Assembly (NCBI GenBank): GCA_964035545.1
Contig: OZ037768.1
Span: 24,268,819-24,332,818 of the forward strand
Length of the DNA: 64,000 bases
From: Bugula neritina
Taxonomy: Eukaryota > Bryozoa > Gymnolaemata > Cheilostomatida > Bugulidae
Direction of reading: 5' to 3'
The position numbers and the translations under genes are program-made. The notes beneath the pieces were generated by a model. The model was given only the letters and a program-made list of their open reading frames with translations, did no database searches and was not told where the DNA came from. This document shows, piece by piece, positions 4,370 to 63,948 of the stretch (positions are counted from its first letter, which is position 1; each line of letters starts with the position of its first letter).

Positions 4370-7300
4370 ATGTCTTCTATGGGTGTAATCAAACCACGCA
4401 CAGCCAAGAAACAAGATGTAAGTTCATTCAGCATTATTCACACACACCACACATATTACAACATAACATCACATTGGCTATAAGATAGATTAAAGTAAGG
4501 TATAATTCTTCCCTATCATATAAAAGACTTGCCAGTGTATTACTGCTATACAGTCATGTTTCAGCAGTATATTGTTATACTGTACTCTCTTTTATAGCCT
4601 ATGAAAAAGCGAATTCCCAGAAACCCCCGATATAAAGATGTTGAGGCTGTTGTTGATTCTGGTATGATACTCATACGATACGATATCATACTAATATGAT
4701 ACGATATCATACTCATACGATATACATACGCTACATTGTTATACTTGCAATACTAGATACTTTATGTCTATTGTGCAAAGTGTATAGTACAAATTGCTTT
4801 CCTTTCCTTTGGTAGACTAGTTTATATGTCACTTTATCAGGCGTAACTTTCTGTATATTTACTGCCATTAGTAGATTGATGTTATGATTTCAGGGTCCAG
4901 TATGACCAAGTATCTTAAAAGACTTGAAGAAATTCGTACAAGTAAGTCCATTTGTTTTACGCAAATTAAATTGTGGTTGCAATTTGTGAGAGTAAAATTG
5001 TATTATATTGTATGTATTTAACATATTATATTGTATGTATTTAATGTAATCCATTACAGTTCTTTAGTCAAAACACACTTTTCTCCCCTTCACTGCATAG
5101 CATGTTGACCAGCTCCTGTATTTCAACATAATATTTGCTTCCCTATAAATAATTTATTCTGATTTATTATTCTACACAGTTGTCCTCTCTCCCCGGGGAG
5201 TGCGGATCTATATAGATATATATTATCCATTGCTCTATAGTCTATAGCATGAATACTGATATACCATGTGATGTTATAGCATGAATACTGATGTATCACA
5301 TGATATTATTTGTTTCTAGACTATAAATACAAGCCAAATGAGTTGTTTAAAAGAATGAAAGTCACTACTTTTGTGCAACTTGTAAGTATTCCTATGAACT
5401 ATTTTGTTTATTAGATTTTCTTGTTTATTTCTTTACTTATATGAGTTTATTGTGCATGTTAATGTATACCAGTTGTATACTTGGAGTACTTATGGGGTAT
5501 TTATTATAGTTCTTTATATTTAATGTATCAATAGTTGTGTAAAGTATTGTAGTATTACTACTGACTGCTTGTTAACCATCCTGTGTCAACTATCTTAGCA
5601 TTTCATTACAGTGTTTCCAGTTATACTAGAAGTAAATAACTACTTAGCTTCAATGTCAGTTTTAGCTAATATGTGGCTTATGTTTAATAATTGCGCATGT
5701 GATATTTGATCAATTGTTTATAGTTGTGTTCACCTCCTGGTATGCTATATGGTATTACTACTACAGTAAATTTTCTGTGTTTCAATGTTTATGCATAAAA
5801 AGCATAGTTTGTTAAACATAAATTTTTACAATATTGAGAGGTTTAAGTTTTAAGTGTTGACATATAATTAATCATAGAATTATTTTCCTAGAATTTAATA
5901 GAAGATGAAATATGATTTGTTGGGGATAGAATTGTGAAAAGCAGAATTGAAATATTAGAACTTCTAAACTATAATAAATTTTAAGCTAGCGATTTTTCTT
6001 CTGTAGATAATACAAGTGTCATCTGTAGACGGGGACATGTTCTTCGATGATCAGAGTGAATGTAAGTTGATAATCAGAGTTGATGTGCAGTTTATTCTCT
6101 AATTCAGAGTTGATATGCAGTTTATTCTCTACTTCAGAGTTGATATGCAGTTTATTCTCTAATTCAGAGTTGATATGCAGTTTATTCTCTACTTCAGAGT
6201 TGATATGCAGTTTATTCTCTAATTCAGAGTTGATATGCAGTTTATTCTCTACTCTGGTCATGTGACTTGCAGTTGGTGACAGGCCGACCACGACAGACAC
6301 AGAGCTTCTCTCTGTCAACGGAGACGCTGCCGGTCAGGTGGATGAGTCAGGGGATGCTGTCAGACAGAGCAGCTCGGAGATGACAAATGGTGGAAGTACA
6401 GCCCGATCTACTCTGCACGGGTATACAGTATATATACTACGCAGTTCATTAAGCAAAACATCATAAAGTATAGACACCCACATGCATTCGCCTGTCATAC
6501 TAGAACTCTTACTTTCTTCTTTACTGGCAGCAAGAACAGGTAACCTGCTGACACATGTCAACTCGCACCAACTCGCTGCTGAAAGACTGGTTTGTGTTCG
6601 CAAATCCTTTCAAGTGCACCTTTTTATTTCCCCAGTCATCTCTCGCTCAGCATACACAGTGTGTTGATGTTACAGCGTGACGCTGCCTCAGCTACGTGCT
6701 GCCGGGTGTTGACTGCATGTGTCCTGGTGTTGTTAGGTTGATCACGGGAGTTGGTGAGTTTGACTTGAAGGAAGGAGTCAACTCGGGGAGTGAGAAGTCG
6801 CCTCCCCCCAACTTCACTCAGCCCGACCCGAACTTAGAGGAGACACCTTTCCTTCTGCTGGACGTGAGAGATGCGGATGAATACAACTTGTGTCACATCA
6901 TATCAGGTAGTATGTCACATCATATCAGGTAATGTGTCACATCATATCAGGTAGTGTGTCACATCATATCAGGTAGTGTGTCACATCATATCAGGTAATG
7001 TGTCACATCATATCAGGTAATGTGTCACATCATATCAGGTAATGTGTCACATCATATCAGGTAGTGTGTCACATCATATCAGGTAGTGTGTCACATCATA
7101 TCAGGTAGTATGTCACATCATATCAGGTAATGTGTCACATCATATCAGGTAGTGTGTCACATCATATCAGGTAGTATGTCACATCATATCAGGTAATGTG
7201 TCACATCATATCAGGTAATGTGTCACATCATATCAGGTAGTGTGTCACATCATATCAGGTAGTATGTCACATCATATCAGGTAGTGTGTCACATCATATC

Positions 7301-10053
7301 AGGTAATGTGTCACATCATATCAGGTAATGTGTCACATCATATCAGGTAATGTGTCACATCACAGCAGGTAGTGTGTCACATCATATCAGGTAGTGTGTC
7401 ACATCATATCAGGTAGTGTGTCACATCATATCAGGTAATGTGTCACATCATATCAGGTAATGTGTCACATCATATCAGGTAATGTGTCACATCACAGCAG
7501 GTAGTGTGTCACATCATATCAGGTAGTGTGTCACATATTATATGCTTTGTTATTTGTATATCTTTGTCTAATGTGTTTATTTTTTATACAGCGGAAAACT
7601 TTCCAGTTTCTTTACTGTCAAGGAGCTGTAACTATGAGAGCAAGTCAATGTTGGCCTATGTAAGTATTATACACTGCAGTGTAAGTATTGTACACTGTAG
7701 TGTAAGTATTGTACACTGTAGTGTAAGTATTGTACACTGTAGTATAAGTATTGTACACTGTAGTGTAAGTATTGTACCTTGTAGTGTATGTAAGTATCAT
7801 ACAATACATATTGTAATGTGCTACTTAGACATATACTTATGATTATAGAGCATATACTTATCAAGTATCATTGCTTTGCTGAATTTCTCATTGGATAAAT
7901 CTTCAGCTGTGAGAGTTATCTATTTGTGTTAGTTATGACAACTCCCAGTGCTCATTGTACTAAATACATGACATAGTAACACATGTCACTGTGTCATAGT
8001 GTCACATGTCATAGTGACACATGTCACTGTGTCATAGTGTCACTGTGTGTCATAGTGTCACTGTGTGTCATAGTGCCACTGTGTGTCATAGTGCCACTGT
8101 GTGTCATAGTGTCACTGTGTGTCATAGTGTCACTGTGTCATAGTGTCACTGTGTGTCATAGTGCCACATGATATGGTAACGCAGAGCTGTTATCTGTTTT
8201 ATAGAAGAATCAGCCTGGCAAGATTATCATACTCTACGATGAAGATGAGCGGGTGGCCCCGAAAGCTGCCACAACACTTGTGGAACGAGGCTATGACAAC
8301 TTGTTTCTACTATCTGGTGGTACGTCTCATCTCTGATGGGATACTTCGTTTATAGTAGATGCAGTGTTTCATTGTAACTCATAATTAACACATTTCGCAA
8401 TCACAAATATTTTGATACAATCTTGGAATGAATATGCAACCTTGTCTTCTTTCTTGACTTGAAAAAGCTGTAATAAAATACTGATTATAGATGTATTTAA
8501 GCTGCTAGTCTTGGGTGTGAATATTTGTCATGTCTCTCCCCCTTGCCACTGGCCAACAGTTGCATAACATTGGAGTTGTGATCTCATGTGAATGCCACAG
8601 TGTATTACTATTATATCACCACAGTGTGATGTTGTGTTGCTATGGTTACCAGGTCTAAAGGTCGCAGGTAAACTATACTCTGTTGGGCTAGTTACCGGGA
8701 CTATACCTGCTAGCATTCTGCCCTCTAACAAGGGGCAGCCAGTGGTACCTCCCAGCAAGCAGCTCTTCACCAGGGAGGACATGTTTGCCCTGCTCGACCA
8801 ATCAGAAAGCTCGTACGATACAAAGAGTACAGTAGCTAGTAAGTGTCCTTAGCAACAGGGAGTTGTGTTCTCACAAATATAGCTCTCTGTATATTATACT
8901 AACATTAGCCAGACAGTAAAGGAAGTAGTGGCAGCTCTAGATAGAGAGAGGGGGGGTTACACAATGCCCTGAACAGTGTGTATTTAGATGTACTGCACCT
9001 TATCTCACAGTCTTGCTGTGTCAATTATTATTCTTTTCTGACATTGTGAGAAAGATGGAAAATATGGGAAACTTTTAAACATAATTAATATTCTTGAAAG
9101 AGGAATGCAAGCTTGTTAAGCTAATGAAGACATTTTCTTGCGTAACTCTAACAATATTATAGAATAAGGAATAATAGTAACTGTATTATATTGGAAGGAC
9201 TAAACACAGTGAATAGCGGTGAAGCCAATTCAGCCAAACAACTCAGACTACTGCTTTCATTTCAATCAATAAAATCTTACCTTAAGCTTGTTATTGTGGC
9301 TTCTGGGCAGGGAGGTTTAATTCATGTCCATGTACAAGGTGCAACATCTGTTTTCATATTAGCTGTGATGTAATCTCTTTCTCCCAATGAAAGTAAACAT
9401 CTGTCCTCTACATCTGCCAACTCATTAAATTTATTAGTGTCTAAAAATGGACTTTCAGCCACTTCCTTATTGTAAACAGTTGGTAATCTATTACCTAATA
9501 TCTCACTGTTTTTTAAAATTGTTTTAAGTATTTCTTAATGTTTTGCTTGAATTTATTTCAACAAGTTGGAAAATCTAATTTTGAGACTAGAATAACCTTC
9601 ACCTTGTCATAACCTTGACCTTGTCATCTGCTTGTGTAGGACAGGGCAAAGTACCTGCTATGACAAGTTTGAGCAAGTGTCTGTCACTACTGTGACATCA
9701 CTTGACACTACCAGCTGTAAGTGACTAGTGTTGACTGAGTCAACTTAGTTGGAGCGATCTTTGCTCTTTGGTAGCCTAGATTGGGCAGAGGTTAGGGGTC
9801 CCGCTGGTTAGATGTAGAGCTGTGGCAGGGAATAGGTTCTAGGAAGTATCACAAGATAACAGGGTTTCATTCCTGACCCAATATTCAAACTTATTACCAG
9901 ACATTGCATATGATATGTTATCCAATGTGATACACTCTCAGTTCTGTGTTTGTAGGCAGAATGAGTAGTAGGGGCGCCCCGTCTACCGCCCGCACCAGCT
10001 CCTCTGTTCTCTCAACCAGCACTCAGGTTCTACACAGGAAACCCTTCAGATAA
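4370..10053 (+). CDS. CEP41: CEP41, centrosomal/ciliary rhodanese-like protein (11 exons)
   Basis: Exons: 4370-4417, 4598-4661, 4894-4941, 5320-5381, 6007-6061, 6273-6420, 6737-6906, 7592-7659, 8205-8319, 8653-8838 and 9956-10053. They join in frame to 353 aa; the human protein is slightly longer. The N-terminus has the family hallmarks [23 protein letters not shown] and [18 protein letters not shown]. An acidic/Ser-rich linker leads to the conserved [18 protein letters not shown] stretch. A rhodanese fold follows (about residues 178-262), with [13 protein letters not shown] and [20 protein letters not shown]. The place where active rhodaneses carry catalytic Cys reads DEDER, so enzymatic activity is not expected. 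CEP41 is known to support tubulin glutamylation in cilia by helping TTLL6 entry. The Ser/Thr-rich tail ends at TAA 10051-10053. Introns 5, 7 and 8 carry minisatellites built on splice-site sequence. Confidence 0.94.
6092..6255. repeat. 30-bp minisatellite in CEP41 intron 5
   Basis: About five and a half copies of a unit reading cagagttgatatgcagttta plus ttctctaatt, with aatt and actt alternating between neighbours, so a 60-bp higher-order repeat is visible. The word atcagagt just before the exon 5 donor resembles the start of the unit, and each unit contains an atgcag|t word that looks like a 3' splice site. Confidence 0.9.
6889..7540. repeat. 22-bp minisatellite copying the CEP41 exon 7 donor junction
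   Basis: About 29 copies of tgtcacatcatatcag followed by gtagtg or gtaatg. The first copy is the true 3' end of exon 7 (codons for C-H-I-I-S) plus its 5' splice site at 6907. Every later copy therefore repeats the last 16 exon bases and a candidate GT donor. The unit is 22 bp, so successive donors fall in different frames. Confidence 0.95.
7650..7795. repeat. 21-bp minisatellite copying the CEP41 exon 8 donor
   Basis: About six copies of gtaagtattgtacactgtagt, starting exactly at the exon 8 5' splice site (gt at 7660-7661). Each copy carries the full donor consensus gtaagtat. The unit is seven codons and is open in the exon 8 frame. Confidence 0.93.
7980..8172. repeat. Short tandem repeat in CEP41 intron 8
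   Basis: Irregular copies of the words gtcatagtgtcactgtgt and gtcatagtgccactgtgt end about 35 bp before the exon 9 acceptor. The unit does not copy the acceptor itself. Confidence 0.85.
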
Positions 10054-10084
10054 TTCACAGTACACAAGTTGACCTGCTGCATTA

Positions 10085-10198
10085 CTTACTTCTGGTTGTT
10101 TCTCACTTACTCTTCACTTACTCTTCACTTCTCACTTACTCTTCACTTCTCACTTACTCTTCACTTCTCACTTACTCTTCACTTACTCTTCACAACTT
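10085..10198. repeat. Pyrimidine-rich tandem repeat after CEP41
   Basis: About six copies of an 18-bp unit, cttactcttcacttctca, beginning about 30 bp after the CEP41 stop codon, probably in its 3' UTR. Confidence 0.85.
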
Positions 10199-14435: not shown

Positions 14436-14735
14436 AATAGTTTGTAATATATATGATGATAGTTTGTAATATATATGATGATAGTTTGTAATATATATGA
14501 TAATAGTTTGTAATATATATGATAATAGTTTGTAATATATATGATAATAGTTTGTAATATATATGATAATAGTTTGTAATATATATGATAATAGTTTGTA
14601 ATATATATGATAATAGTTTGTAATATATATGATAATAGTTTGTAGTATATATGATAATAGTTTGTAATATATATGATAATAGTTGTGAGTAATATATATG
14701 GTAATAGTTTGTAATATATATGATATAGTAGTTTG
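14436..14735. repeat. 22-bp AT-rich minisatellite
   Basis: About thirteen copies of gataatagtttgtaatatat followed by at, with single-base variants (gatgatag, gtagtatat). The long minus-strand open frame across it is only a product of the repeat. Confidence 0.93.
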
Positions 14736-16283: not shown

Positions 16284-16291
16284 TTACGTCA
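16284..16291. promoter_or_regulatory. CRE/ATF-like site upstream of ARIH1
   Basis: TTACGTCA (TGACGTAA on the other strand) lies about 150 bp before the ARIH1 start codon. It matches the ATF/CREB half-site family. The position is right for a promoter element, but a single eight-base match can occur by chance. Confidence 0.3.
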
Positions 16292-16443: not shown

Positions 16444-19400
16444 ATGGATAGCGAAGAAGAAATGTATGATGAATCTGAAGAGGAGGAGGTTAGTGATGAT
16501 GATCATAATATGGTTATGGAACCTGAAGTTAGCAGTACTACGGCCACTTACGATAGCCAGGATGAAACCTATCCACACGAAGTCCTCTCACCTGAAATGA
16601 TTGTTCAACATATGATTGACTGTATTAAAGACGTCAATACTATTGTAGAGGTATTACTATTATTTTTGCATATTGTTTTTAATAGGACTTATATCTCATC
16701 TATGATAATCATAGTGAGTAACTTAAATTTTGTTGTTGGAACTTGGTTCAACTCCAAGTTCAAGCTGAGATCTTGATTTTAGTAGTTACAACAACTGAAC
16801 ACGTTAATTCACCTCTAATATCAAGTTATAGACTGGAATTCATTATAATAAAGTGATTTTATGTTGCTATTTTAGTTTACATTTATTGTTGATTAAAAAT
16901 AATTATTATTTAAGAAGTCCTACATTTTAAAGGCTGTTTTAACAATGCTTGCAGTCAGTGCGAGTGTCACTATGAGATGACCATCGAAATCGATTTCGAT
17001 ATCGTACTAATACTAATATAGATGCACTCCCTTACTCTTAGCTATATTTTTCACAAGAGATGAAAGTGATTAAAACATTATTGACTGGTTACAATTAATT
17101 AAAAGTAATATTTTCATTTTGTTGTATGAATTTTATTAGAAATCCAGATTGGTAATCCCCCACTCTCTATTCAATTCAATGGCAAACTTAATTTGCAATG
17201 CAAACTATTTACAATTAATAAACAAATACACATTCAATTCACTGTTGATAGATTTTAATGAATATAACCAGAATGTAATGAATGCTAAGTGTATGAAGCT
17301 CTAAGCTTCTATAGTTTGAGCTTATTATGTTGCATTCTGTTGCTAACAACACCAGGCTAAACCCCAGTTCAGATTATAAAAGTTGGTGTTTTTAATAGAA
17401 ACATTTATGTTCTGTTTTGGACTAAACTTTTTATTCATAGATTTCAAATCTCTCAGCGCCAAAGTTGAGATTTATGTATTAGTTGAGAGTTGAGGAGTGA
17501 ACAACCCTCAGACTAGTCAGTTATTAGATCTGATTGTGTGCTGCAGTTACCCGCCACAATCACTAGGATTCTACTCAACCATTTCAAGTGGGACAAGGAG
17601 AAGCTGATAGAGAAGTACTATGATGGTGACCAGGAGAAGCTGTTTGCTGAAGCTCATATCATAAGTCCTTCTAGAAGGGGCCAAGCTTCTGGTTAGTCTA
17701 ATCAGTATTTTGTTTTATTCTGATCTTTCAGAGGTGTTCACTACTAGAGCTATTGTCTTCCTTGCAACGAATGGCTTTAGTAGAATTCACTGTACCTAAA
17801 CTGCTTTACCTTGATAAGAATTAAGCAAGTATTCTTTGTTCTAAATTATTAGCCATCATGTTGATGTACAAGGCTGCAGTAGGTAGAAGATATTCTGACA
17901 CATAGCATTTCACACAGCAGTTTTCATTGCTGTGGTGAATATCTGTGGCTACTTTCAGGCTCCTCCAATCAAGTGTCGGTCTCCTCAACAACTCGAAGTA
18001 CCAGAAGCAGAGCCGCTGCCACAGTCAGGTCCGCTGACTGTGAAATATGTTTCTCAACGCTGCCGACCACGGTAAGCAGGGAACACTACTCACTCACACT
18101 ACTCATTAACTACTCACTCAATACTCACTCACTCAGTCTCATTCATTACTCAGTCACTCACTCTCTAATCACTCACTACTATAACTTATACTCTTATGTT
18201 TAAGTACATTACACAGTATAGCACATGGTTGATATATGATATTAGTCATCATATTGTTTAACATTATCACTGCACTGCACTATGTTATGAAGGTAATGAC
18301 AGGCTTAGAATGTGGACATCTCTTCTGTGAACAATGTTGGAGCATGTACCTCACCAGCAAGATATTACACGAGGGGATCAGTGAGACCATTTCCTGTCCG
18401 GCGCACGTGTGCGGCATATTGGTGGACGACGCCACCGTCATGTAAGTTCCACTCGCGATCTAATACGAGTAGCTTGCTATCAGTAGAATATGTGCTTTAA
18501 AAAGTTGTTCTCAAATGCATGAAATGGAATTGCTGTTGATGATGTAACTGATTGTTTTACACTTTTCTATTGGCTAAATCAATAAATCAATAGTATTGTA
18601 AGCATCATTATAAAGATAGCTGCAAACTAATTGCATTTAGATTTATACTCTCCAGATCATGTTGTGATTATGTATGAATATACGACACAAATTGTCTGCT
18701 CTTTGTTTTAGGAGGCTGGTTAGAGACCAAAGAGTAAGACTGAAATATCAACATTTAATCACAAACAGTTTTGTAGAGGTAAGTGTTGAAAGTGATTCCT
18801 CTTTTTTCCACGCAATGAAATATGCTGTTATTGCTGTATGATCAACTTTTATAAGAATATGATAGTAAACTTGGAGTTATCTCCTTGTTTGGGTTAAATT
18901 TTGGAATTGTTTCCTCTCTCACAACTGTTGTACATGTATTATTTGTGATAAAGACAACTAGCACATAATGGTTTCTTATAGTAGATGTTTTAGATAACAG
19001 ATATAATAGATAATAAATTATTTAAATAATATACTTTGAGTTCATCATTTTGAAGATTGACCGTAATATATTAATACTTGAATATTTCATTTAGTTTTCA
19101 CCATTTATTCATAAAAACTTTAAAAACCAAATTATAAAGGTTCTGATTTATATTATGTTTGTTATCAAGAGTGACATTTTAAACTGTAATACACTGTAGT
19201 ACACACTACTGTAAAGTGTTTGCTGTAGTTACACATGTTTGCTGTAGTTACACATGTTTACTGTAGCTACACATGTTTGCTGTAGCTACACATGTTTACT
19301 GTAGTTACACATGTTTACTGTAGTGTAACAGACTACTACGCTGGTGTCCTGCTGCCGACTGTGGTAGAGCTATCAGAGTCAACTACGTGGACAGTAAACC

Positions 19401-22400
19401 AGTTACCTGCACCTGTGGACATCGATTCTGGTCAGTGTCTGCTTGTAATACATCTGCTAGTTATACGTATGCTAGTTATACGTCTGCTAGTTATACGTCT
19501 GCTAGTTATACGTCTGCTAGTTATACGTCTGCTAGTTATACGTCTGCTAGTAATACGTCTGCTAGTTATACGTCTGCTAGTTATACGTCTGCTAGTTATA
19601 CGTCTGCTAGTTATACGTCTGCTAGTTATACGTCTGCTAGTTATAAGTCTGCTAGTTATACGTCTGCTAGTTATACGTCTGCTAGTTATACGTCTGCTAG
19701 TTATAAGTCTGCTAGTTATACGTCTGCTAGTTATACGTCTGCTTGTAATACGTCTGCTAGTTATACGTCTGCTAGTTATACGTCTGCTAGTTATACGTCT
19801 GCTAGTTATAAGTCTGCTAGTTATACGTCTGCTAGTTATACGTCTGCTAGTTATACGTCTGCTAGTTATAAGTCTGCTAGTTATACGTCTGCTAGTTATA
19901 CGTCTGCTTGTAATACGTCTGCTAGTTATACGTCTGCTAGTTATACGTCTGCTAGTTATAAGTCTGCTAGTTATACGTCTGCTAGTTATACGTCTGCTAG
20001 TTATACGTCTGCTAGTTATACGTCTGCTGAATATACATCTGCTAGTTATACGTCTTTATTTACTATATAGTATATACTTACTATATAGTATATACTTACT
20101 ATATAGTATATACTTACATATTTGTAGCTTTAGCTGTGCCGAGTCTTGGCACGACCCTGTCAAGTGTTTCTGGTTGAAGAAGTGGGTTAAAAAATGTGAT
20201 GATGACAGCGAGACTTCTAATTGGATAGCTGCTAACACTAAGGTATTTGATTGGATAGCTGCTAGCAACAAGGTATTTGATTGGATAGCTGCTAACACTA
20301 AGGTATTTGATTGGACAGCTGCTAACACTAAGGTATTTGATTGGATAGTTACTAACAACAAGGTATTTGATTGGATAGCTACTAACAACAAGGTATTTGA
20401 TTGGTAGGAATGCCCCAAGTGTCAGGTGACCATAGAGAAAGATGGCGGATGTAATCACATGATCTGTAGAAATCAGAGCTGTAAAGCTGACTTCTGCTGG
20501 GTGTGTCTGGGTCCATGGGAACCACACGGTTCATCATGGTGCGTATATATAGTATATATTATACAGGTATATTATATATATCACGCAGGTATATTATATA
20601 TCACGCAGGTATATTATATATATATTACGCAGGTATAGTATATATTACACAGGTATATTATATATATTACACAGGTATATATTATATATCACGCAGGTAT
20701 ATTAAATATCACGCAGGTATAGTATATATCACGCAGGTATATTATATATCACGCAGGTATAGTATATATCACGCAGGTATATTATATATCACGCAGGTAT
20801 AGTATATATCACGCAGGTATATTATATATCACGCAGGTATAGTATATATCACGCAGGTATATTATATATCAGTAGTTTTAAAAAACTACCAAAATCCTTT
20901 TCAAATTCTAGAAAACTGTATATTATTAAATAAAAGACCTATAAATTACTCTAACAGCATAACTTTTCTAGGTGTACAAATAGATAAAAATTTAAATTGG
21001 AGCTTGCACATCTCAAACCTACTTACAAAATTACGACCACTTAGTGGATTAATATACCGATGTTCTGAATATCTCCCTCAAAAAATTTTACTTTTGATAT
21101 ATAATTCTTTCATCAATTCCAAGTTAAATTATTGTGCAGAGGCCTGGGGAAATGCAGCTAATACCCATCTAAACAAGATTTTTATTTTTCAAAAAAAGGT
21201 AATGCGTATCATGAACAAAAAACCGTTTGACCATCCATCAGCGCCTCTATTTACTAAGCATAAAGTTCTCTCAATATACCAGATTTACCGTTTTAAAGTG
21301 TTAAAGAAAGCTCATTCTTTTTTCTACTCTGACAATTTTTTTCCCACTCACTCTATCAATACACGTCAATCATTCATAAATCTCCCCCTTCCTCACTCTC
21401 AAACAGCAGCAGGTCACAGAAGAAACTGTTATCAGGAGGTGGCACTATGGAATGAACTGCCAATCCCTTTACGGTCAATTAGCAACCCTAATGAATTTGG
21501 GAGGAAGTTGAGGCTTTATCTGTTAGAATAGTTGTATTTTTTTTGTATTTTTCTGGATAGAGTCGCTGTCAGCTCGTGTTGGCCCGCGCATGACTAGCTA
21601 GGCTATAGCGCAATGGGCCTCATCATCGCCTCCTTGGCATTTTCTAATGTCCTTGTGTTATTAAATACCTTTGATGAAATAAACCAAACAAACAAACAAA
21701 CAAACAAACAAACATATCACGCAGGTATAGTATATATCACGCAGGTATAGTATATATCACGCAGGTATATTATATATCACGCAGGTATAGTATATATCAC
21801 GCAGGTATAGTATATATCACGCAGGTATAGTATATATCACGCAGGTATAGTATATATTACGCAGGTATATTATATATCACGCAGGTATAGTATATATCAC
21901 GCAGGTATATTATATATCACGCAGGTATATTATATATCACGCAGGTATATTATATATCACGCAGGTATATTATATATCACGCAGGTATAGTATATATCAC
22001 GCAGGTATAGTATATATTACGCAGGTATATTATATATCACGCAGGTATATTATATATCACGCAGGTATATTAAATATCACGCAGGTATATTATATATCAC
22101 GCAGGTATATTATATATCACGCAGGTATATTATATATCACGCAGGTATATTATATATCACGCAGGTATATTAAATATCACGCAGGTATATTATATATCAC
22201 GCAGGTATATTATATATCACGCAGGTATAACTGTAACCGGTTCGATGAAGACGCTGCCGTCAAAGCTCGGACAGCACAGGAAGTGTCGAGGGCCGCACTA
22301 CAGCGCTACCTCCACTACTGTAACCGATACATGAATCACATGCAGAGTCTCAAGTTTGAACACAAGGTTTGTCTCCCCTTCCTCTCCAACCCTCGGGTTT

Positions 22401-25035: not shown

Positions 25036-25430
<395 letters not shown>

Positions 25431-44847: not shown

Positions 44848-50994
<6,147 letters not shown>

Positions 50995-52972: not shown

Positions 52973-55900
52973 ATGAAATTGATCATAATACTTTTTGTTA
53001 TAGCTGGAGTGATGAATGGCATACTTGGTCTAATAGTGGTACTACTAGTAGCTAACAGTGCCACTCAAGTCTCCAGTAGCTCCCTGATAGTGGCTAATGT
53101 GGTTCGTATATCATTCATATATTCTGCTAGTGAAGCATATCAAACTTGTGGTTGTATATTCAAGATTTGTGCACTACTTAATATAAGCAGTAGTTGAGTT
53201 TTTCATTCTTGTTTACTTTGAATAACTATAACGTCGTCTATTGGAGGATTTTGCTTGTAAACTATTTTTTCCATGAAACTTTGAGCTGTGGGAAATGTAG
53301 AGGGCTGTAAATCATGTTCAGTCAGCTGGGATTAACTTGTTATTGATAAATGATTTATTTGTAGTAATACAGTATACATTTATAGTAATACAGTATACAT
53401 TTATAGTAATACAGTATACATTTATAGTAATACAGTATACATTTATAGTAATACAGTATACATTTATAGTAATACAGTATGCATTTATAGTAATACAGTA
53501 TACATTTATAGTAATACAGTATACATTCATAGTGTGCGTTGTACTGGCTAGTAGAAGTCTTGTGTATTTTTCTCACTTTCTGAAGTCAAGCAAACTTTGT
53601 AGATCAAATAATTTGCTTTGTGTTCAGTTATTCCGACACGGCGATCGGTCCCCGACAGCACCCCTTCCTAAGAATCAGTACAGCAACGAGTCCTATTGGC
53701 CCTTTGGATGGGGAGAATTGACCAATGTGAGTACTGTGGTGATGACTCCCAGAGAGAAGGCAACTTCTGATTTTCATAACCGAGTGATTATAATATACTA
53801 ATTGTTACAGAGATTTCGTATAGAAGGCCAAAAACTACTTAACACATTTTAGCAGACTTGAAATCTATAGTCTATTTGTATTTAGATTTAATAAATTGGC
53901 AGAAAATGGTGTTTTGTTGGATGCTGTTTAAACTGAAATGCACGTTACATTTTAGTCGTAGTATTCAACTGCTATATCGACGTGTACTGCATGTTTGTAG
54001 ACCGGGCGGGAGCAACAGTACAGACTCGGTCTCTTTCTAAGGCAGAGATACGACTCAGTGATTGACGATGTCTTCAACTATAAAAATGTTGGTATTATTT
54101 GCTGCAGCCTTGTTATCATTGATCTCTATTTTGTGTTATTGTGGCCAAACAAAGCAGCGTATAACTGAATATAACTCGACTTTGTTACCAGATAGAAGTT
54201 CGCAGCTCCGACAAGGACAGGTGTTTAGTCAGTGCCTACAGCAACCTGGCCGGCCTCTTCTCCAGCAACAACTCCGAGACGGAAGACCTGAAACTGCCGT
54301 GGATGACATGGCAGCCACTTCCTGTTCACACGCAGCCGGCCATCACTGACGAGGTTTGTGTGCCGCACCTGGTATACTGTGTCACTGTGTGCAGGTACTG
54401 TATTACTGTGTGCAGATACTGTATTACTGTGTGCAGACACTGTATTACTGTGTGCAGACACTGTATTACTGTGTGCAGATACTGTATTACTGTGTGCAGA
54501 TACTGTATTACTGTGTGCAGATACTGTATTACTGTGTGCAGACACTGTATTACTGTGTGCAGACACTGTATTACTGTGTGCAGGCACTGTATTACTGTGT
54601 GCAGACACTGTATTACTGTGTGCAGATAGTGTATTACTGTGTGCAGATAGTGTATTACTGTGTGCAGATACTGTATTACTGTGTGCAGACACTGTATTAC
54701 TGTGTGCAGACACTGTATTACTGTGTGCAGATACTGTATTACTGTGTGCAGATACTGTATTACTGTGTGCAGATACTGTATTACTGTGTGCAGACACTGT
54801 ATTACTGTGTGCAGATACTGTATTACTGTGTGCAGATACTGTATTACTGTGTGCAGACACTGTATTACTGTCTGCAGACACTGTGTTACTGTGTGCAGAT
54901 ACTGTGTTACTGTGTGCAGACACTGTGTTACTGTGTGCAGACACTGTGTTACTGTGTGCAGACACTGTATTACTGAGTGCAGATACTGTAGTACTGTGTG
55001 CAGACACTGTATTACTGTGTGCAGATACTGTATTACTGTGTGCAGACACTGTATTACTGTGTGCAGACACTGTATTACTGTGTGCAGATACTATATTACT
55101 CTGTGCAGATACTGTATTACTGTGTGCAGATACTGTATTACTGTGTGCAGATACTGTATTACTGTGTGCAGATACTGGCCATGGATAGACCGTGTACTCT
55201 GGGAGAGAAAGAGCTGGAGCGGGTATTCTCCACCCCCACTATACAACAGATAAACTCAGACTATGCGGAGTTCTTTAACCTGGTGGGTAACAATACTGGC
55301 GTGGATCTCTCCGAGAATGGTTTCAGAGATATCTGGACAGTAGCGGACTTCATGTACATCCAGGTGAGTCATGTGACATCCTGTGGTAGGTGATGAAGTA
55401 ATATTCTGTACTATGCTATAATAATATAATGTTCCTCCTATCTCTGCATAGGGAATATACTATCCCCCGCTACCAGACTGGACTACTGAAGGAAACATAA
55501 AGTGTAACGACAACCCAACCATCTCATGCAAAGACAAGACGGTGTACGAGATAATGAGAGAAATGAATGACTTACAGTTCTACGTTATGTACAACTCAAC
55601 CGAGCTGCACAAACTTGACGGGGGTATATGATATATCCTCATCTAGTATATGATATACCCTCATCTAGTATATGATATATCCTCATCTAGTATATGATAT
55701 ACCCTCATCTAGTATATGATATATCCTCATCTAGTATGTGATATATCCTCATCTAGTATATGATATATCCTCATCTAGTATATGATATACCCTCATCTAG
55801 TATATGATATACCCTCATCTAGTATATGATATATCCTCATCTAGTATATGATATATCCTCATCTAGTATATGATATTCCCTCATCTAGTATATGATATAT

Positions 55901-57924
55901 TCTCATCTAGTATATGATATACCCTCATCTAGTATATGATATACCCTCATCTAGTATATGATATATCCTCATCTAGTATATGATATACCCTCATCTAGTA
56001 TATGATATATTCTCATCTAGTATATGATATATCCTCATCTAGTATATGATATACCCTCATCTAGTATATAATATATCATATCCTTATCCAGGTCCAGTTT
56101 TGACGGATATCGGGAAGAAGTTTGGAGAGTATTTGGCAGGAAAAAGATCCGTCACGTACAACATTTACTCGGCGGTGAGTTTTCAGTATCCTTAGACTCT
56201 AACTGACTTGGCAATCTGTATACTCTACTCTGTATACTCTGTATACTCTACTCTGTATACTCTACTCTGTATACTCTGTATACTCTGTATACTATACTCT
56301 GTATACTCTACTCTGTATACTCTACTCTGTATACTCTGTATACTCTACTCTGTATACTCTACTCTGTATACTCTGTATACTCTACTCTGTATACTCTGTA
56401 TACTCTACTCTGTATACTCTACTCTGTATACTCTGTATACTCTACTCTGTATACTCTGTATACTCTACTCTGTATACTCTACTCTGTATACTCTACTCTG
56501 TATACTCTACTCTGTATACTCTACTCTGTATACTCTACTCTGTATACTCTACTCTGTATACTCTACTCTGTATACTCTGTATACTCTACCTGTATACTAT
56601 ACTGTATACTATACTGTATACTATATGAATATATCATCTACCATGTATCATACATAATACTGTCATCCCACACCATTGCCTTTCTCACGAGATTCACTCA
56701 TCTGTACGTCAACCTTTCAAACCGTTTTGAGACAGCAGGTTGTGTCAGACCAGGTAACTAGAAACATGTCAACTATTATATAAACTCATTGCTGACTTTC
56801 TTGTGACTATTGCAATTGCTGACTCTACGTTATATTTAGCACGACACGACAGTGTCTGCCGTTCTCACCGCCCTCCAGATCTCGGACGCTAAGCAGCCAA
56901 AGTACACCGCCACGGTCATGGTTGAGCTGCACAAGTCAGCTGGTGATGCTCAAGGTCACGAGGTCAAGGTCTTTTACAAGCCAATCACTGACAGCTCTTT
57001 TATTGTGGAGAAAAATCTGCCAGGTGAGAGAGTTTAGTCTGCGGCGTGAGTGAGTAGGTGTGTAGTGATACGCCGTGAGAAGGTGTGTAGTGATACGTCG
57101 TGAGAAGGTGTGTAGTGATACGCCGTGAGAAGGTGTGTAGTGATACAGTGTGAGAAGGTGTGTAGTGATACGCCGTGAGAAGGTGTGTAGTGATACAGTG
57201 TGAGAAGATGTGTAGTGATACGCCGTGAGAAGGTGTGTAGTGATACGCCGTGAGAAGGTGTGTAGTGATACAGTGTGAGAAGGTGTGTAGTGATACATTG
57301 TGAGAAGGTGTGTAGTGATACAGTGTGAGAAGATGAATCATTAGTATTTTGTGTTTCAGGTTGCCCAAGTCCTTGTAAACTTGAAGACTTCCTACAATAT
57401 GTCAAGAGATTTGAAATTTCTAACTGGGACGAGGAGTGTGGGAATAATGTGCCGACAACTCCGGCTCCACCATCCACAGACAGCCTCGGTCTCACTCACC
57501 GTACGTCTGCTACTTGTATATACGTCTGCTACTTGTATATACGTCTGCTACTTGTATATACGTCTGCTACTTGTATATACGTCTGCTACTTGTATATACG
57601 TCTGCTACTTGTATATACGTCTGCTACTTGTATATACGTCTGCTACTTGTATATACGTCTGCTACTTGTATATACGTCTGCTACTTGTATATACGTCTGC
57701 TACTTGTATATACGTCTGCTACTTGTATGTACGTCTGCTACTTGTATATACGTCTGCTACTTGTGTATACGTCTGCTACTTGTATATTTACAGAGGAGAA
57801 GATAACAATCATCGCCTGCTCCACCGTAGTCGTGGTATTCTGCCTCATTCTACTGATTATGTTTGTGAGAAAAAGGAGCTCTAGGTCTATGGCACCGTAC
57901 CTGTCCCTTGGCGTTGGTGAGTAG
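52973..57924 (+). CDS. ACP2: Lysosomal-type histidine acid phosphatase (10 exons)
   Basis: Exons: 52973-53101, 53628-53726, 54001-54087, 54192-54353, 55172-55363, 55452-55623, 56092-56174, 56840-57023, 57360-57500 and 57794-57924. They join in frame to 459 aa. A hydrophobic N-terminal signal comes first. The catalytic LFRHGDRSP follows, with His47 as the phospho-accepting nucleophile. After it come LRQRYD, IEVRSSDKDRCLVSAYSNLA and WQPLPVHTQP, and the HD proton donor lies at 309-310 (HDTTVSAV). The ectodomain ends in a Pro/Thr-rich stalk, one transmembrane helix (about 420-441) and an 18-residue tail with PYLSL. That fits a YxxPhi sorting signal, as in type I lysosomal acid phosphatase. The enzyme hydrolyses phosphomonoesters at acid pH. 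ACP2 is the closest named relative, but the ACP2/ACP3/ACP4 split is vertebrate, so orthology is approximate. Introns 1, 4 and 6-9 carry minisatellites. Confidence 0.93.
53358..53532. repeat. 21-bp minisatellite in acid phosphatase intron 1
   Basis: About eight near-perfect copies of gtaatacagtatacatttata. Each unit holds both a gta word and an acag word, but it lies about 95 bp from the real acceptor and does not copy it. Confidence 0.95.
54391..55171. repeat. 21-bp minisatellite copying the acid phosphatase exon 5 acceptor
   Basis: About 37 copies of atactgtattactgtgtgcag, running into the true 3' splice site gtgtgcag|ATACTGGCC. Each copy has the acceptor plus the first six exon bases. The unit is seven codons (I-L-Y-Y-C-V-Q) and is open in the exon 5 frame from about 54980 to the exon, so upstream acceptors would add heptapeptides. 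Confidence 0.96.
55624..56065. repeat. 22-bp minisatellite of GT..AG units, acid phosphatase intron 6
   Basis: About 20 copies of gtatatgatatatcctcatcta plus g shared with the next unit. It begins exactly at the exon 6 donor. Each unit starts with gtatat and ends in catctag, so it looks like a donor and an acceptor in miniature. Confidence 0.95.
56215..56620. repeat. tactctgta-type tandem repeat, acid phosphatase intron 7
   Basis: Mixed 9-bp (tactctgta) and 14-bp (tactctactctgta) units, about 400 bp in all. It does not copy a splice junction. Confidence 0.93.
57036..57335. repeat. 25-bp minisatellite in acid phosphatase intron 8
   Basis: About twelve copies of gtgtgtagtgatacgccgtg plus agaag, alternating with acagtg variants. 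It starts about 13 bp after the exon 8 donor gtgagaga. The word gtgagaag inside the unit resembles that donor. Confidence 0.92.
57497..57785. repeat. 19-bp minisatellite at the acid phosphatase exon 9 donor
   Basis: About fifteen copies of tacgtctgctacttgtata. The first tacgtctg is part of the true donor cacc|gtacgtctg at 57501. The array fills the intron, with only a short ttacag acceptor at the end. Confidence 0.94.
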
Positions 57925-58920: not shown

Positions 58921-61900
58921 ATGAATATTGACGAATTGCAGGATACAAATCTGATTAATGGCCGGGCAGCAATTTTCAAGGTACATTTTATTTGTTTATG
59001 CTTATTTGATAACTGAAAGTTTAGGAAAAACTGGTTTTTGAGATTTCAAGCTGCACAAGTACAAAAACTATTTGCAACTATGAGTCACTGTCGGGATTTA
59101 GTCACATGATCTTAAATTTGGCAAATTATTTACCTTTTTTTGCAGGAAAACCTGTGTAATTATTTTGAATTCGTTAGATTTGAAACTGTTAAATGGAAGA
59201 CGATGTTTGGTTAACGTTAAATCCAAACTTTTGTCACTAAATTTTGGAATTTCTAGTTAATGTTAAATATAAACTTTTTGTCACTTGATTCATTCATGTG
59301 TGTTCTTAGATGTTACGATAACTCCTACTGTTTTCGTAGAACTTGCTGATTACCAAGTTCCGGCTAGTTGAGAAAATTGGTAGCAAAGTGGTGTTTAGTA
59401 AAGAAACATGTGCCGAGCTTGTAGAGGTCAAAGGACTCATGGATGAGCTTATGACTAACAGTCCAGATGCCAAAGTATGCAATTCCTGCAGGGTTCTACC
59501 AATTCTTTCTATTTTTATGAGCTTTATTCTTTTTTCTTTATAGATCCTATTGTTTGGAGTTTTTGAGAACAAAATGTTGTATTCAAGCTGCCGTGATTTT
59601 ATGTTGTTAGCCATATAATGTCTTAGTCATGGTCATCTTCGTATAAGTATGTTGGAGGGTTCTTATTAATATGGCATTTCCTGTTGGAATATATTTACTG
59701 TTTTTAAATTATTTATTTTTAAGCACTTTGCAAAACCAAAGTATATATAATACTGGGAAGATTATTGAATGGGTTGCTGTATCTGATTGCTTTATTATAT
59801 TATAATGTCACATTTGATTGGTTGAAAATAATCTAATGCTACATCTGATTGGGTGATTGAATCTATTGACTCACAGGTGAAGTATTCGCTGAAGAGAGTC
59901 AAGAACCGCACGGTGAAGCCAAAGTCAGTGCGTGGTTGGCTGAAGGATCAGAACAGAACTATGAATCTGTTCACTGTCATCACATACCCGATACTCCGGT
60001 GGGTAAGATGGCTTCTCCACAGCAACCTCTTCCATCGCTTCTTCTACCTTGTTGCTCTCTGGAATATGGCTTCAGTCGGTAAAGTCGATAATCTCATTTC
60101 ATTGTCTTGCAAGTGTTTTATTATTTGCTGTGGTTGTGTTATTTGACAAATTGGTAATGCAGTTATTTGTACCGGTAATGTGATAATTCATATGCGTAAT
60201 GTGGTAATTCATATTGATAATATGATAATGGAAATTAGTAATGTGGTTAATCATATTGGCAATGTGATAGTTTGTTTTAAAACTTTTGGGAGTCTACAAT
60301 AAGTTAGGATGGTTTTAACTTTTAATGAGTTTAGGGTATATCATAGTAATACTTTATAAGCAGACGCATGTCTGTACTACAGAGTAAAATACAATAAGAG
60401 TAATGTAGGAGTACTAATCAGTGTACTATTGGCAGCACTAGACATAGAATATGGACAGACTGGGCTTATGGCTGGCACTGATACATTCACGGTGCCTGTA
60501 ACTAGTAAAGCAATTAAGGTCAACCTAGCCATTGCCCAAATCACGCTGACTATCCTGCTGCTGCTCGAACTTGCCATGAAGTGGATCTTGGATTTCCAGG
60601 TACGTCTCTCTCTTTGCTTAGTATTTATGTCACTTTGAATATTGTGTGATTGTCATGTACTATGAGTCACTGAATATTGTGTGATTGTCATATACTGTGA
60701 GCTATTCTGTGAATTATAACTTGCTGTAGGGATACTGGAGAAGGTTCTGGAATTACGTTGACTTCTTTGTTGTCATATCTACTGCACCATTTAGTAAGTA
60801 TTATCATATCTACTGCACCATTTAGTAAGTATTATCATATCTACTTCACCACTCAGTACGTAACAAGATATATACTGTAAGTCTCTCTCTCTGTTTGCAG
60901 TTGGCACATTCTTTGAGTGGTATGAGTTAGACTTTGTGGGGGAGATCACGCTGCACGCCTGTAGAAGTTTGATTGCCCTGAAGCTTATTCACGAACTCGA
61001 TGCTCTCAAAGCTGTGTTGGAGTTGCTAGCCCTCACTGTAGCCAGCATGGTGCGACAACTTCTATGTTTATTTCAAGTTCTTCTAAGTTTTCTTTTCAAA
61101 ATTTATAATATGTACATCATATTTTGCTACAGGCTGTTTCCCAGTCTATGTTTAACATTTCCTGTTCTGATGGCGCTTGTAGGTGTACGTTGTCAGTTTC
61201 ATCGTGATGCTGACCTTCCTGTGTGGTCTGATAGGTACGACCCTCTTTGATGTTCACGTCATCCCTCCTTCTCAGGCCGGCCTCAATCTCAATGAAGTGA
61301 AGGAGTGGGAGGCTGCCTATGTCTTCAGTCATGGTTCGTTCGTATGTTTGTGTGTCTGTCTGCATGTCTGTTTGTCTAACTCTGATTCAGAATGACTGAG
61401 TTCTTGATTATGTTTTAATTTAGTTGCTTTATTGTATGGTTTGTTTGCTACGAGTCATAATAATAAATATACTAAAATAAACTAGAATATACAAGAATAT
61501 ACTAGAATAGACTAGAACATACTAGAATATCCTAGAACATACTAGAATATTAGAACATACTAGAATGTACTAGAATATACTAGAACATATTAGAACATAC
61601 TAGAATATACTAGAATTTCAACTGATTATGATGTTCCTCTCAGGCCTAGGAAGATCTCTGCTCATAATATTCAAACTCTTCACTCTGGACGGTTGGTACA
61701 AGTTCTACAAAGACTTTGCCCTGATCCACGACATCTATGCTTCTTCTATTTTCATCTTCACTTGGGTCTTCCTCTCTGCGTTCCTCCTCGGCAATCTCTT
61801 CCCTGCTCTACTCATTACCAACTTTCAGCGAATCAGAAGTGAGGTTAGTAAATGGGTAAAGTTACAGCTGCTTAGATGTCGCATTCTTCAGCACACATTC

Positions 61901-63948
61901 TCTAAAAACTGAAGTCTATGATTTTACAGTATTTGATAAGTTGGTGCAGCTAAACCCCCTAGACACCCCCTATGACACCTCATTGGGTATTTATGTTCAA
62001 CGAGTTGACGCGAATCTCTTCCCGTTCAATAGGAGCCTGGCGCAATTTTTTTAATCAAGCAGTGCTTGATCCTGACATACCGTAACGTAGCACGGTCAGC
62101 CCCGCCACGTTTAAAATTGGCTGACATTTGCTGTTACGGTCTACGTTACGGCAAAGTATGTCTGGGGAGAAAAGCTATATACTATTAACTGCTACTGCTC
62201 CACTTGAGAGCTAAAAGCACTCAATTCTGAGAGATTATCTCCTTTGCAGTTGAAAGAAGAGATGGAGCACTCAGAGATTGTGAGAGAGATGAGTCAGGAG
62301 ATTCTGCTGTTGGGAGATCAGATGCAGAACAACAGGATTCCTCTGGCAACAAATGTATCTAATGAGTCAACTGGTGAGTCATAGCTTGTCTGGTGATGAG
62401 TCATAAGTTATCTGACCAGTCATAGTACATGTGGTAATGAGTCATAGTGTATGTGGTGATGAGTCATAGTATATGTGATAATGAGTCATAGTGTATGTGA
62501 TAATGAGTCATAGTACATGTGGTAATGAGTCATAGTGTATGTGGTGATGAGTCATAGTATATGTGATAATGAGTCATAGTGTATGTGATAATGAGTCATA
62601 GTATATGTAATAATGAGTCATAGTGTATGTGATAATGAGTCATAGTATATGTGGTAATGAGTCATAGTGTATGTGGTGATGAGTCATAGTATATGTGATA
62701 ATGAGTCATAGTGTATGTGATAATGAGTCATAGTATATGTGGTAATGAGTCATAATACATGTGATAATGAGTCATGATAATTTATTTGATATGCATGGAA
62801 TTTCTAACTATTATCCTCTGCTATATTATACTGTAGAAGCTTCTAGTTTCAGACTGTATCAGCACTGCATTATGTTTTATATACAGTTTTGATTTACAGT
62901 CACTGATAAGATTGGCGTTGATGTGGTACTCAAAGCAACTTCCTACTCTGAGACTAGCATACACACAGTTGATATTAGTGAAGCCTTCCTTGATAAACTC
63001 TACGCACACCCCACTCTACCTGTATGTATAGCTAGCTCCTCCCACCCTACCTGTATGTATAGCTAGCTCCTCCCACTTTACATGTATGTATAGCTAGCTC
63101 CTTCCACTCTATCTGTATGTATAGCTAGCCCCTCCAACTCTACCTGTATGTATAGCTAGCTTCTCCCACTCTACCTGTAGGTATAGCTAGCTCCTCCCAC
63201 TCTACCTGTATGTATAGCTAGCTCCTCCCACTCCACCTGTATGTATAGCTAGCTTCTCCCACTCTACCTGTACGTATAGCTAGCTCCTCCCACTCTAGCT
63301 GTATGTATAGTTAGCTCCTCCCACTCTTTCTGTATGCATAGATAGCTCCTCCCACTTTACGTGTACGTATAGATTTAATTAACATCCTCATTACAGGGAG
63401 AAATGCACTCTGATACATATGGACTAAAGTCTAGCAAGTCTGAGATATATGGTAAGCATTATGTTGTATATATTGGTATTTTAGTTTCACTGCCATCCTT
63501 AGAGATATTATACTATACATATATATCTATTATCTCTGGATAATTGTATCTTTATCCTATACAGTACTGTGCATTTCTAGCCATCCACCTGAGTTGTTTA
63601 TCTTGTATCCTAGCAACCACACCCATAGTAGCCGTCCAATCAGCTACTCCTCCCACCCAATCACCAAAGTCTTCCCTCGCATCAGAATCTGGAGCCACAC
63701 CTACTCAAGAAGTCTTTTCAAGAGCCACGTCTGCAGCTGCCAAGGGCACATCCACACCCACTAAAGACACGCCCACTGGTTCTCTAACCACACCCCCACT
63801 TCCTCCAAGAGCTTCTTTTGCCTCCGCCCCGAAAGAGAAACTTTTTCTGTCTCAGCTTGACCTCGCCAGTCTGATGAGGATAATGCCGTCAGAGTTGGAG
63901 CCCGGCAGACCTATGACGGCGGTGAGTGATGACCTCCGTGCTGCCTAG
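58921..63948 (+). CDS. CATSPER2: CatSper2-like sperm cation channel subunit (12 exons seen, 3' end uncertain)
   Basis: Exons: 58921-58980, 59340-59474, 59877-60078, 60436-60599, 60730-60793, 60901-61049, 61183-61333, 61644-61843, 62250-62373, 62900-63021, 63397-63451 and 63581 (or 63613)-63948. They join in frame to about 597 aa. It is a single six-transmembrane ion channel domain. S3 contains FWNYVDFFVV; S4 is CRSLIALKLIHELDALK with few positive charges. The pore has FKLFTLDGWYKF, whose Thr322-x-Asp324-x-Trp326 is the CatSper selectivity-filter pattern. S6 ends in NFQRIRSELKEEMEHSEI, close to the CatSper2 pattern NFQNIRKELNEEM, and a coiled coil follows. CatSper is the flagellar alkalinisation-gated calcium channel. 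A strong donor (gcg|gtgagtgatg) at about 63921 suggests the last exon may splice beyond the window instead of ending at TAG 63946-63948. Other CatSper subunits are possible. Confidence 0.72.
60757..60856. repeat. Two to three copies of the CatSper exon 5 donor junction
   Basis: The last 24 or so bases of exon 5 plus the donor (catatctactgcaccattta|gtaagtatt) are repeated at once as a perfect second copy, then a decayed third one (catatctacttcaccactcagtacg). The period is about 32 bp. Confidence 0.9.
61465..61622. repeat. actagaata/actagaaca repeat in CatSper intron 7
   Basis: About fifteen loose copies of a roughly 10-bp unit, tactagaata or tactagaaca. Confidence 0.88.
61950..62166. mobile_element. 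Diverged, shortened MITE related to the piggyBac-like copies
   Basis: From about 61998 on it aligns with the right half of the 27939-28611 element: an aataggagcc word, tttttttaatcaagcagtgc followed by ttgat (the inner palindrome), then atttgctgttacggtctacg leading to the terminal gggg. The left end is eroded and I see no clear TTAA. It lies in CatSper intron 8, so this family has inserted at least twice in the window. Confidence 0.75.
62360..62775. repeat. 22-bp minisatellite at the CatSper exon 9 donor
   Basis: About eighteen copies of aatgagtcatagtatatgtg plus gt, with gtgatgagtc variants. The true junction reads aatgagtcaactg|gtgagtcatag, so the unit keeps the exon end aatgagtca and the donor-side gagtcatag. 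Confidence 0.92.
63009..63370. repeat. 31-bp minisatellite copying the CatSper exon 10 donor
   Basis: About twelve copies of cccactctacctgtatgtat plus agctagctcct. The first copy is the true exon 10 end (codons for P-T-L-P) plus its donor gtatgt at 63022. Confidence 0.95.

Follow-up and report, generated by a model that had tools for sequence, protein, structure and literature searches.

Minisatellites across splice junctions in genes near a chromosome end of Bugula neritina

Several introns of the bryozoan Bugula neritina contain minisatellite arrays that reach a splice junction, and in some of these the repeat unit includes exon bases together with the splice site. The arrays were studied in a stretch of 64,000 nucleotides, hereafter the window, that is located on chromosome 4, 0.46-0.53 Mb from the assembled end (contig of 24,795,343 bases). 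They represent a known kind of oddity that is frequent here and apparently a by-product of blind local duplication. Five genes with 48 GT-AG introns were curated in the window: CEP41, ARIH1, PLK1, a histidine acid phosphatase (ACP), and CatSper2. Gene identities were taken from Pfam, PDB-sequence and homologue matches, and the exon borders were placed using the reading frame, GT-AG sites and homology. The coding spans are as follows.

4370..10053, + strand: CEP41, 11 exons
16444..23387, + strand: ARIH1, 12 exons
46357..50994, + strand: PLK1, 9 exons; the 5' end lies outside the model
53012..57924, + strand: ACP, 10 exons
58921..63451, + strand: CatSper2, 11 exons; the 3' end lies outside the model

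Intron arrays in the window and in other genes

Arrays were called with Tandem Repeats Finder (TRF; period of at least 9, score of at least 50, overlapping calls removed), and the 128 rows obtained for the window were reduced to 70 arrays by the filters for overlap, short period and low score. The curated introns hold 37 of the 70; 31 of the 48 introns carry an array and 17 carry none. None of the 70 is contained entirely in the 7,051 curated coding bp. Eight of the 37 intron arrays include the splice site together with 5 to 23 exon bases (six on the donor side and two on the acceptor side, with periods of 18 to 45). Another eight have an end no more than 2 bp from a junction and hold at most 1 exon base, giving a touching class of 16. 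The remaining 21 do not touch a junction. The arrays at junctions are listed below, those that cross first.

6889..7536, + strand: CEP41 intron 7, 22 bp x 29.5; crosses donor; 18 exon bases (end of ..LCHIIS) plus GTAG
20220..20404, + strand: ARIH1 intron 7, 30 bp x 6.2; crosses donor; 23 exon bases (NWIAANTK)
48894..49508, + strand: PLK1 intron 6, 45 bp x 13.7; crosses donor; 16 exon bases
49892..50631, + strand: PLK1 intron 8, 18 bp x 41; crosses donor; 9 exon bases (HTK)
60773..60862, + strand: CatSper2 intron 5, 31 bp x 2.9; crosses donor; 21 exon bases
63010..63374, + strand: CatSper2 intron 10, 31 bp x 11.7; crosses donor; 12 exon bases
21714..22229, + strand: ARIH1 intron 8, 20 bp x 25.8; crosses acceptor; 5 exon bases
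54374..55177, + strand: ACP intron 4, 21 bp x 38; crosses acceptor; 6 exon bases; junction placed by frame and Pfam only
7659..7792, + strand: CEP41 intron 8, 21 bp x 6.4; abuts donor (1 exon base)
4663..4722, + strand: CEP41 intron 2, 21 bp x 2.9; starts 1 bp inside donor
19217..19324, + strand: ARIH1 intron 5, 19 bp x 5.7; abuts acceptor (1 exon base)
20060..20126, + strand: ARIH1 intron 6, second array, 18 bp x 3.5; ends 1 bp before exon
22366..22425, + strand: ARIH1 intron 9, 30 bp x 2; abuts donor (1 exon base)
23233..23299, + strand: ARIH1 intron 11, 32 bp x 2.1; ends exactly at acceptor
55624..56077, + strand: ACP intron 6, 22 bp x 20.6; starts exactly at donor (0 exon bases)
57502..57787, + strand: ACP intron 9, 19 bp x 15; from 1 bp inside donor to 6 bp before exon
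62418..62779, + strand: CatSper2 intron 9, 22 bp x 16; TRF start 44 bp into the intron

An earlier sequence-only reading of the window had proposed that the repeat units contain exon bases plus a splice site, which the eight crossing arrays bear out, and had listed 13 cases (its PLK1 introns 7 and 9 are taken as introns 6 and 8 of the curated model). Eight of the 13 cross clearly, four merely abut with 0 or 1 exon base, and one, CatSper2 intron 9, is degenerate: by eye, its donor at 62374 is reached by degenerate copies only. The abutting arrays of CEP41 intron 2, ARIH1 intron 6 (the second array), ARIH1 intron 9 and ARIH1 intron 11 were not on that list.

Unit sequence and period vary between introns, the exception being ARIH1 intron 8, both arrays of which have one unit, and unit length is not confined to multiples of three. 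GC content is above 50% in just one of the 37 intron arrays. That a unit would match 12 to 23 exon bases by chance was judged, not computed, to be not credible; units do tolerate mismatches. The unit of ARIH1 intron 8 recurs at 20548-20871, and a retrotransposon-like insert with a CAAA-repeat tail is located inside this array at about 20872-21713, flanked by the unit on both sides (by eye). Assembly artefact was rejected as the origin of the arrays; the copies within an array differ from each other, and the assembly was made from HiFi reads with a published QV of 53.7, according to the available text of PMC11480708.

Junction-crossing arrays were also found at other chromosome-end sites. Genes outside the window are ab initio models from a gene finder trained on the five curated genes alone, and the version used gave 50 of the 53 window exons exactly, with 57 predicted, an accuracy measured on its training genes only. 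Retraining the finder on its own predictions was abandoned, as it lowered the number of exact exons from 51 of 53 at first to 32 of 53 after three rounds. The Pfam-supported genes at these sites contributed 29 arrays in 45 introns, and 4 of the 29 cross a junction with at least 3 exon bases. The first is in OPLAH intron 8, which lies closer than the window to that end of chromosome 4 (21 bp x 45, with 17 exon bases coding ..VIYSLR). Two are in a CFAP58-like gene at the opposite end of this chromosome, in intron 7 (7 exon bases) and intron 9 (11 exon bases), and an FNIP gene on chromosome 1 has one in intron 8 (3 exon bases). CFAP58-like intron 9 (L025:3892-4542) is wholly array, which begins 1 bp after the donor and continues over the 11 exon bases. 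The donor of this intron belongs to an exon-like first copy, nearer the true exon start than the printed inner copies; the intron is a candidate for intron remake or gain.

A further 27 arrays, 3 of which would cross a junction, were left out of the end-gene counts because their exons are unproven. They belong to L022 introns 13-15 (a lectin-like gene, Pfam-negative), L023 introns 1 and 4-7 (a poly-leucine false exon), L026 intron 1, L028 introns 1-3, the second gene of L025, and L027, L029 and L030 (weak models). The would-be crossers are in L022 intron 14 (22 exon bases), L023 intron 4 (9) and L029 intron 2 (27).

Splice signals in the copies and the conserved junction

The splice dinucleotides are retained in phase in almost every copy of the crossing arrays. 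GT is kept in CEP41 intron 7 (29/29), ARIH1 intron 7 (6/6), PLK1 intron 6 (14/14), PLK1 intron 8 (41/41), CatSper2 intron 5 (3/3), CatSper2 intron 10 (12/12) and OPLAH intron 8 (44/45). On the acceptor side AG is kept in ARIH1 intron 8 (26/26), ACP intron 4 (38/38) and CFAP58-like intron 9 (15/15), as well as in the abutting array of ARIH1 intron 5 (6/6). The copies were also scored with a matrix built from the 48 curated introns themselves, with the bar set at the weakest tenth of real sites. Inner copies passing the bar numbered 25/40 in PLK1 intron 8, 43/44 in OPLAH intron 8 and 37/37 in ACP intron 4. In CEP41 intron 7, 13 of 28 inner copies pass and each of these outscores the first copy, while in CatSper2 intron 5 neither of the two inner copies passes, and nine tenths of real donors outscore them and the first copy alike. 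No inner copy was obtained for CEP41 intron 2, ACP intron 6 and ACP intron 9 under a rule of 9/16 matching bases around the junction; by eye, the intron half of the donor, including GT, recurs in the arrays of ACP introns 6 and 9 and the exon half alone differs.

Protein alignments do not contain an insertion at the outermost junction in human ARIH1, in CEP41 of three animals, or in OPLAH (hydantoinase alignment). The human ARIH1 alignment covers residues 38-513 with gaps confined to about residues 118-140, and the array junctions are ungapped. The CEP41 model was compared with the Watersipora, mouse and Lingula proteins, and the exon end at intron 7 aligns without a gap. In PLK1 the alignment shown spans the kinase domain, and for the polo-box region a table only gives the match (315-542 to chain 6-235), whose near-equal lengths leave no space for 6 or 15 extra residues. 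The ACP model is supported by Pfam and the frame. A search for CatSper2 homologues at E 1e-30 returned no match, and the CatSper2 introns therefore rest on Pfam and on the match to mouse CatSper2 (to residue 388); the exon end at intron 10 falls beyond the PDB alignment.

In the cases checked, these alignments indicate that the outermost copy is the junction that fits the conserved protein, and the outermost splice site is presumably the one used in RNA. The exon bases of the arrays code for protein and are conserved in the cases compared (NWIAANTK in ARIH1; CHI of LCHIIS in CEP41), which identifies the exon and not the array as the template. By eye, the intron bases in the units of the six donor-side arrays (CEP41 intron 7, ARIH1 intron 7, PLK1 introns 6 and 8, CatSper2 introns 5 and 10) differ from the start of the next exon; in ARIH1 intron 7, for example, the unit continues GTATTTG and the next exon begins GAATGCC. 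The junction, and the intron, therefore existed before the array.

An annotated protein may have been misread at such an intron. The NCBI B. neritina ARIH1 protein is 96% identical to the window ARIH1 over 100% of the query and differs at one residue and by a gap. The gap corresponds to 22 residues, conserved in human ARIH1, at the array-crossed acceptor of intron 8 (20539-22224), and their loss is probably a model error. The protein is apparently an AUGUSTUS model of the draft genome, as far as the available text of PMC7576161 indicates.

Chromosome ends and the probable replacement of intron bodies

Array density is high at most of the chromosome-end sites read. At nine sites 0.1-0.5 Mb from ends, arrays cover 33, 59, 37, 17, 0.5, 30, 36, 3.9 and 20% of the sequence, the last value being that of the window, compared with 2.5% of 200 kb inside chromosome 1 and 2.5% of 10 kb inside chromosome 4. 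Per 10-kb stretch, the median cover is 21% for 14 end stretches (6 from the window) and 1.7% for 21 interior stretches (P 2e-5). DNA similar to three of the window arrays was found in 74 distinct places (20-kb clusters on nine chromosomes, window excluded), 44 of which lie within 2 Mb of an end, with 13.3 expected. This clustering may in part reflect families that spread between ends. The array of ARIH1 intron 6 at 19437-20055 has relatives that are 93-96% identical at C4:24564092-24564665, and others on chromosome 3 at C3:29315041 and C3:32213620 (89% and 95%). Two of these three sites are within 0.25 Mb of a chromosome end, and such relatives show that some minisatellites spread between loci.

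Telomere-like CCCCAAA/TTTGGGG repeats are present at five of nine contig ends (C4 start, C1 end, and C5, C6 and C7 start), and no such repeat was found in the 60 to 400 bases inspected at each of the other four (C4 end; C1, C8 and C9 start). As the repeat is missing at some ends, chromosome end here means the end of the assembled chromosome. The repeats (L031, L034, L035, L036, L037) are mostly of the TTTGGGG type, irregular, and unlike TTAGGG, the usual animal telomere repeat.

Arrays also appear to have taken the place of older intron sequence. In the window and end genes together, the median length outside arrays is 94.5 bp for the 56 array-bearing introns, compared with 202 bp for the 37 array-free introns (P 0.001), and in 22 of the 56 the non-array sequence is shorter than the shortest array-free intron (54 bp). 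An array added to a normal intron would leave more non-array sequence than this, and the original intron body has therefore probably been lost or overwritten.

Proposed position-blind duplication and its alternatives

The sequence-only reading implied that arrays touch junctions more often than shuffled positions would, and two null models were used for the comparison. In a rigid-slide null, the arrays of the five window genes were moved inside their own introns (10,000 trials); on average 4.6 and at most 11 arrays touched a junction, compared with the 16 of 37 observed. The claim holds against this null, but the model forbids crossing and is too weak. In the position-blind null, which is the fairer one, a stretch as long as one unit is duplicated at a site drawn uniformly from those that overlap the intron. 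The analyst chose uniform placement, a single duplicated unit with the TRF period and an ancestral intron of at least 60 bp; ancestral length was set in two ways, either with the array collapsed to one unit (collapsed length) or as the length of array-free introns (array-free length), and crossing was defined by at least 3 exon bases.

Under the position-blind null, 8 of the 37 window arrays cross versus 9.9 (collapsed) or 5.2 (array-free) expected, and the 16 that touch compare with 12.1 for collapsed length (P 0.08). For the 22 window arrays of at least four copies, 7 cross versus 7.0 or 2.9 (P 0.02 for the latter) and 11 touch versus 8.7 or 3.7 (P 0.0003 for the latter). When the window and the other end genes are pooled, 12 of 66 arrays cross versus 17.9 or 12.1, and 21 of 66 touch versus 21.9 or 15.0 (P 0.67 or 0.06); in the other end genes alone, 5 of 29 touch versus 8.0-9.8. 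Crossing thus takes place near the position-blind rate. A preference for junctions is not convincingly supported, although the outcome varies with the ancestral intron length assumed.

We propose, with a probability of about 0.72, that position-blind tandem duplication near chromosome ends, together with retention of the exon-side copy, explains the junction-crossing arrays. Near the ends, stretches of about 10-50 bp would often be tandemly duplicated wherever they are placed, giving rise to minisatellites, with break repair or slippage as the presumed molecular source. Selection would remove duplications within coding exons, and those within introns would survive. A duplication that crosses a junction would be tolerated if the outermost copy on the exon side retains a complete splice site; the exon would be unchanged and all other copies, exon bases included, would become intron. 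The arrays would then expand and be kept similar through exchange among copies, and the older intron body would disappear, leaving some introns as little more than array. We infer the selective filter and the order of these events. The explanation of tolerance given by the sequence-only reading, that every copy offers an equivalent site, is retained for the outermost copy, which still offers the splice site. Its proposal of repeated local tandem duplication over existing junctions is supported, since exon-coded bases recur in the intron copies. The idea that introns grew from their own junctions is true of the arrays and not of the origin of the introns, the donor-side units holding prior intron bases.

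Several observations weigh against position-blind duplication. With array-free length, the 16 touching arrays of the window exceed the 6.4 expected (P 0.0002). Pooled crossing is below the collapsed-length expectation (P 0.04 for so few), which makes the position-blind model approximate. In the interior 200 kb none of 36 intron arrays touches a junction where about 4 are expected (P 0.01); either the model or the unverified interior gene models may fail there. Two of the nine end sites are array-poor (0.5% and 3.9%) and seven are rich, and when independent sites are counted the contrast in density does not reach significance (P 0.15), because there are just two independent interior sites (200 kb and 10 kb). 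The similarity survey used three queries, all of them window arrays, and its places are the best candidates only (in one list the best 40 of 45). Additionally, the end nearest the window, the C4 end, does not have a telomere repeat in its last 400 bases.

It is also conceivable, though unlikely, that junctions are favoured sites of duplication, through break repair linked to transcription or splicing or through AG/GT microhomology, as the heading of the sequence-only reading suggests. The touching excess with array-free length and the eight arrays that abut with at most 1 exon base would fit this. However, the touching excess is weak with collapsed length, the other end genes do not show a touching excess, and the full sets of arrays, in the window or pooled, do not have a significant excess with at least 3 exon bases; among the window arrays of at least four copies, the crossing excess obtained with array-free length vanishes with collapsed length. 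The touching excess is thus confined to the window. Abutting arrays might have accumulated there through drift, if the stretches of intron copies that derive from the exon diverged from the constrained exon itself.

The intron-gain model, in which tandem genomic duplication creates an intron, reportedly goes back to Rogers in 1989, with later contributions by Zhuo in 2007 and by Gao and Lynch in 2009. Applied here, the introns would be new, born by duplication of an exon holding AG/GT, with the array as a birth scar. ARIH1 intron 7 is nearly all array, with only 3 bp left, and CFAP58-like intron 9 is likewise, with its donor in an exon-like copy. The available text of PMC3443670 describes how tandem genomic duplication can create extra AG/GT sites; in that model an exon is duplicated and a new intron arises, whereas in Bugula the junction of an existing intron is duplicated. 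Human genes in segmental duplications have minisatellites of about 30 bp that alter gene structure, some at an exon-intron boundary; as far as the available text of PMC2812944 goes, these are interpreted as novel introns with the repeat often kept in transcripts, while the Bugula junction pre-exists. A wholly exonic duplicated segment was not seen by eye in the six donor-side window units, which hold intron bases unlike the next exon. Intron gain was therefore rejected as the general cause and is very improbable as the explanation of these arrays.

A dispersed mobile minisatellite that inserts at or near splice sites is likewise very improbable. Crossing units bear exon bases of their own gene, and one mobile repeat was rejected as the general cause, with no relative above 78% identity for CEP41 intron 7 and ACP intron 4, the two of eight crossing arrays that were searched. 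The statement in the sequence-only reading that the arrays are not one mobile repeat stands for these two; it does not extend to the non-crossing array of ARIH1 intron 6, whose relatives described above would be expected of a mobile repeat. Retention of the arrays for a function, e.g. as a splicing buffer or in the regulation of intron length, is extremely improbable: GT/AG is preserved almost throughout the inner copies of crossing arrays, but homogenisation would also preserve these signals, units and periods are specific to each intron, and 17 of 48 introns are array-free.

The sequence-only reading knew of no named system that matches, but the closest published counterpart of the junction arrays has a name. 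Amphioxus "mirages" are described for Adh3, troponin C and globin genes, with similar repeats in PGBD5, in the available text of PMC3087553 and PMC3902484. Like the mirages, the Bugula arrays are minisatellite-like tandem repeats over an exon-intron boundary on the donor or acceptor side, with a gene-specific unit length and many copies bearing AG/GT signals. They differ in occurring in a bryozoan, in having window crossing units of 18-45 bp, compared with 150-160 bp in the globins and 10-72 bp in Adh3 (available text of PMC3087553), and in reaching up to 45 copies, occurring in all five modelled window genes, being located near chromosome ends and sometimes occupying nearly the whole intron. 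Splicing was assayed in amphioxus; the Bugula arrays are known from genomic sequence. Human minisatellites cluster subtelomerically and the end-clustered class is GC-rich, according to the accessible part of PMC3486850; the Bugula arrays share the clustering at ends and differ in GC content and in filling introns. In the open-licence literature, among the matches listed, no further report of boundary minisatellites was recognised for bryozoans or other organisms, and the accessible part of one B. neritina genome paper (PMC7576161) does not mention the word "intron". What seems to be new is the setting, i.e. the density near ends and the near-complete filling of introns by arrays.

Introner elements also mark many introns of a genome through one process. 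Introners share sequence, whereas the Bugula arrays, which likewise occupy many introns through what is apparently one process, do not appear to have a common sequence.

Boundary-spanning minisatellites are in print mainly from a few amphioxus genes, and here they are found in gene after gene of another phylum. As the position-blind model approximately predicts their number, a puzzling pattern would become a measure of the rate of short tandem duplication near chromosome ends. Introns in which a single donor or acceptor is naturally present in 6 to 45 copies would be useful for tests of splice-site choice, and annotators should be aware that gene models may fail at such introns. A more tentative extension, to which we give somewhat less than even odds, is that chromosome ends are zones of intron remodelling in which intron bodies are steadily replaced by junction arrays, so that essential genes carry introns with dozens of similarly strong sites and only the exon-adjacent one gives the conserved protein. 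If true, this would be a large-scale natural test of splice-site choice, also for acceptors at which dozens of equivalent AGs further upstream would have to be skipped.

Between about 24300 and 44000 of the window there are tandem copies of a minus-strand gene spaced about 4-6 kb apart, each with the same 30-bp and 32-bp minisatellites; from its reading we take this gene to be fibrinogen-related. An in-frame 27-bp coding repeat is located in a predicted exon of the lectin-like gene at L022:9728-9926. Elsewhere in the assembly, small contigs (C42, C52, C97, C120, C149, C153, C154, C165, C189, C190 and others) have kinesin matches with many TAA/TAG and almost no TGA inside, a pattern known from ciliate-like genomes that translate TAA/TAG as amino acids, and they probably belong to an associate in the assembly.

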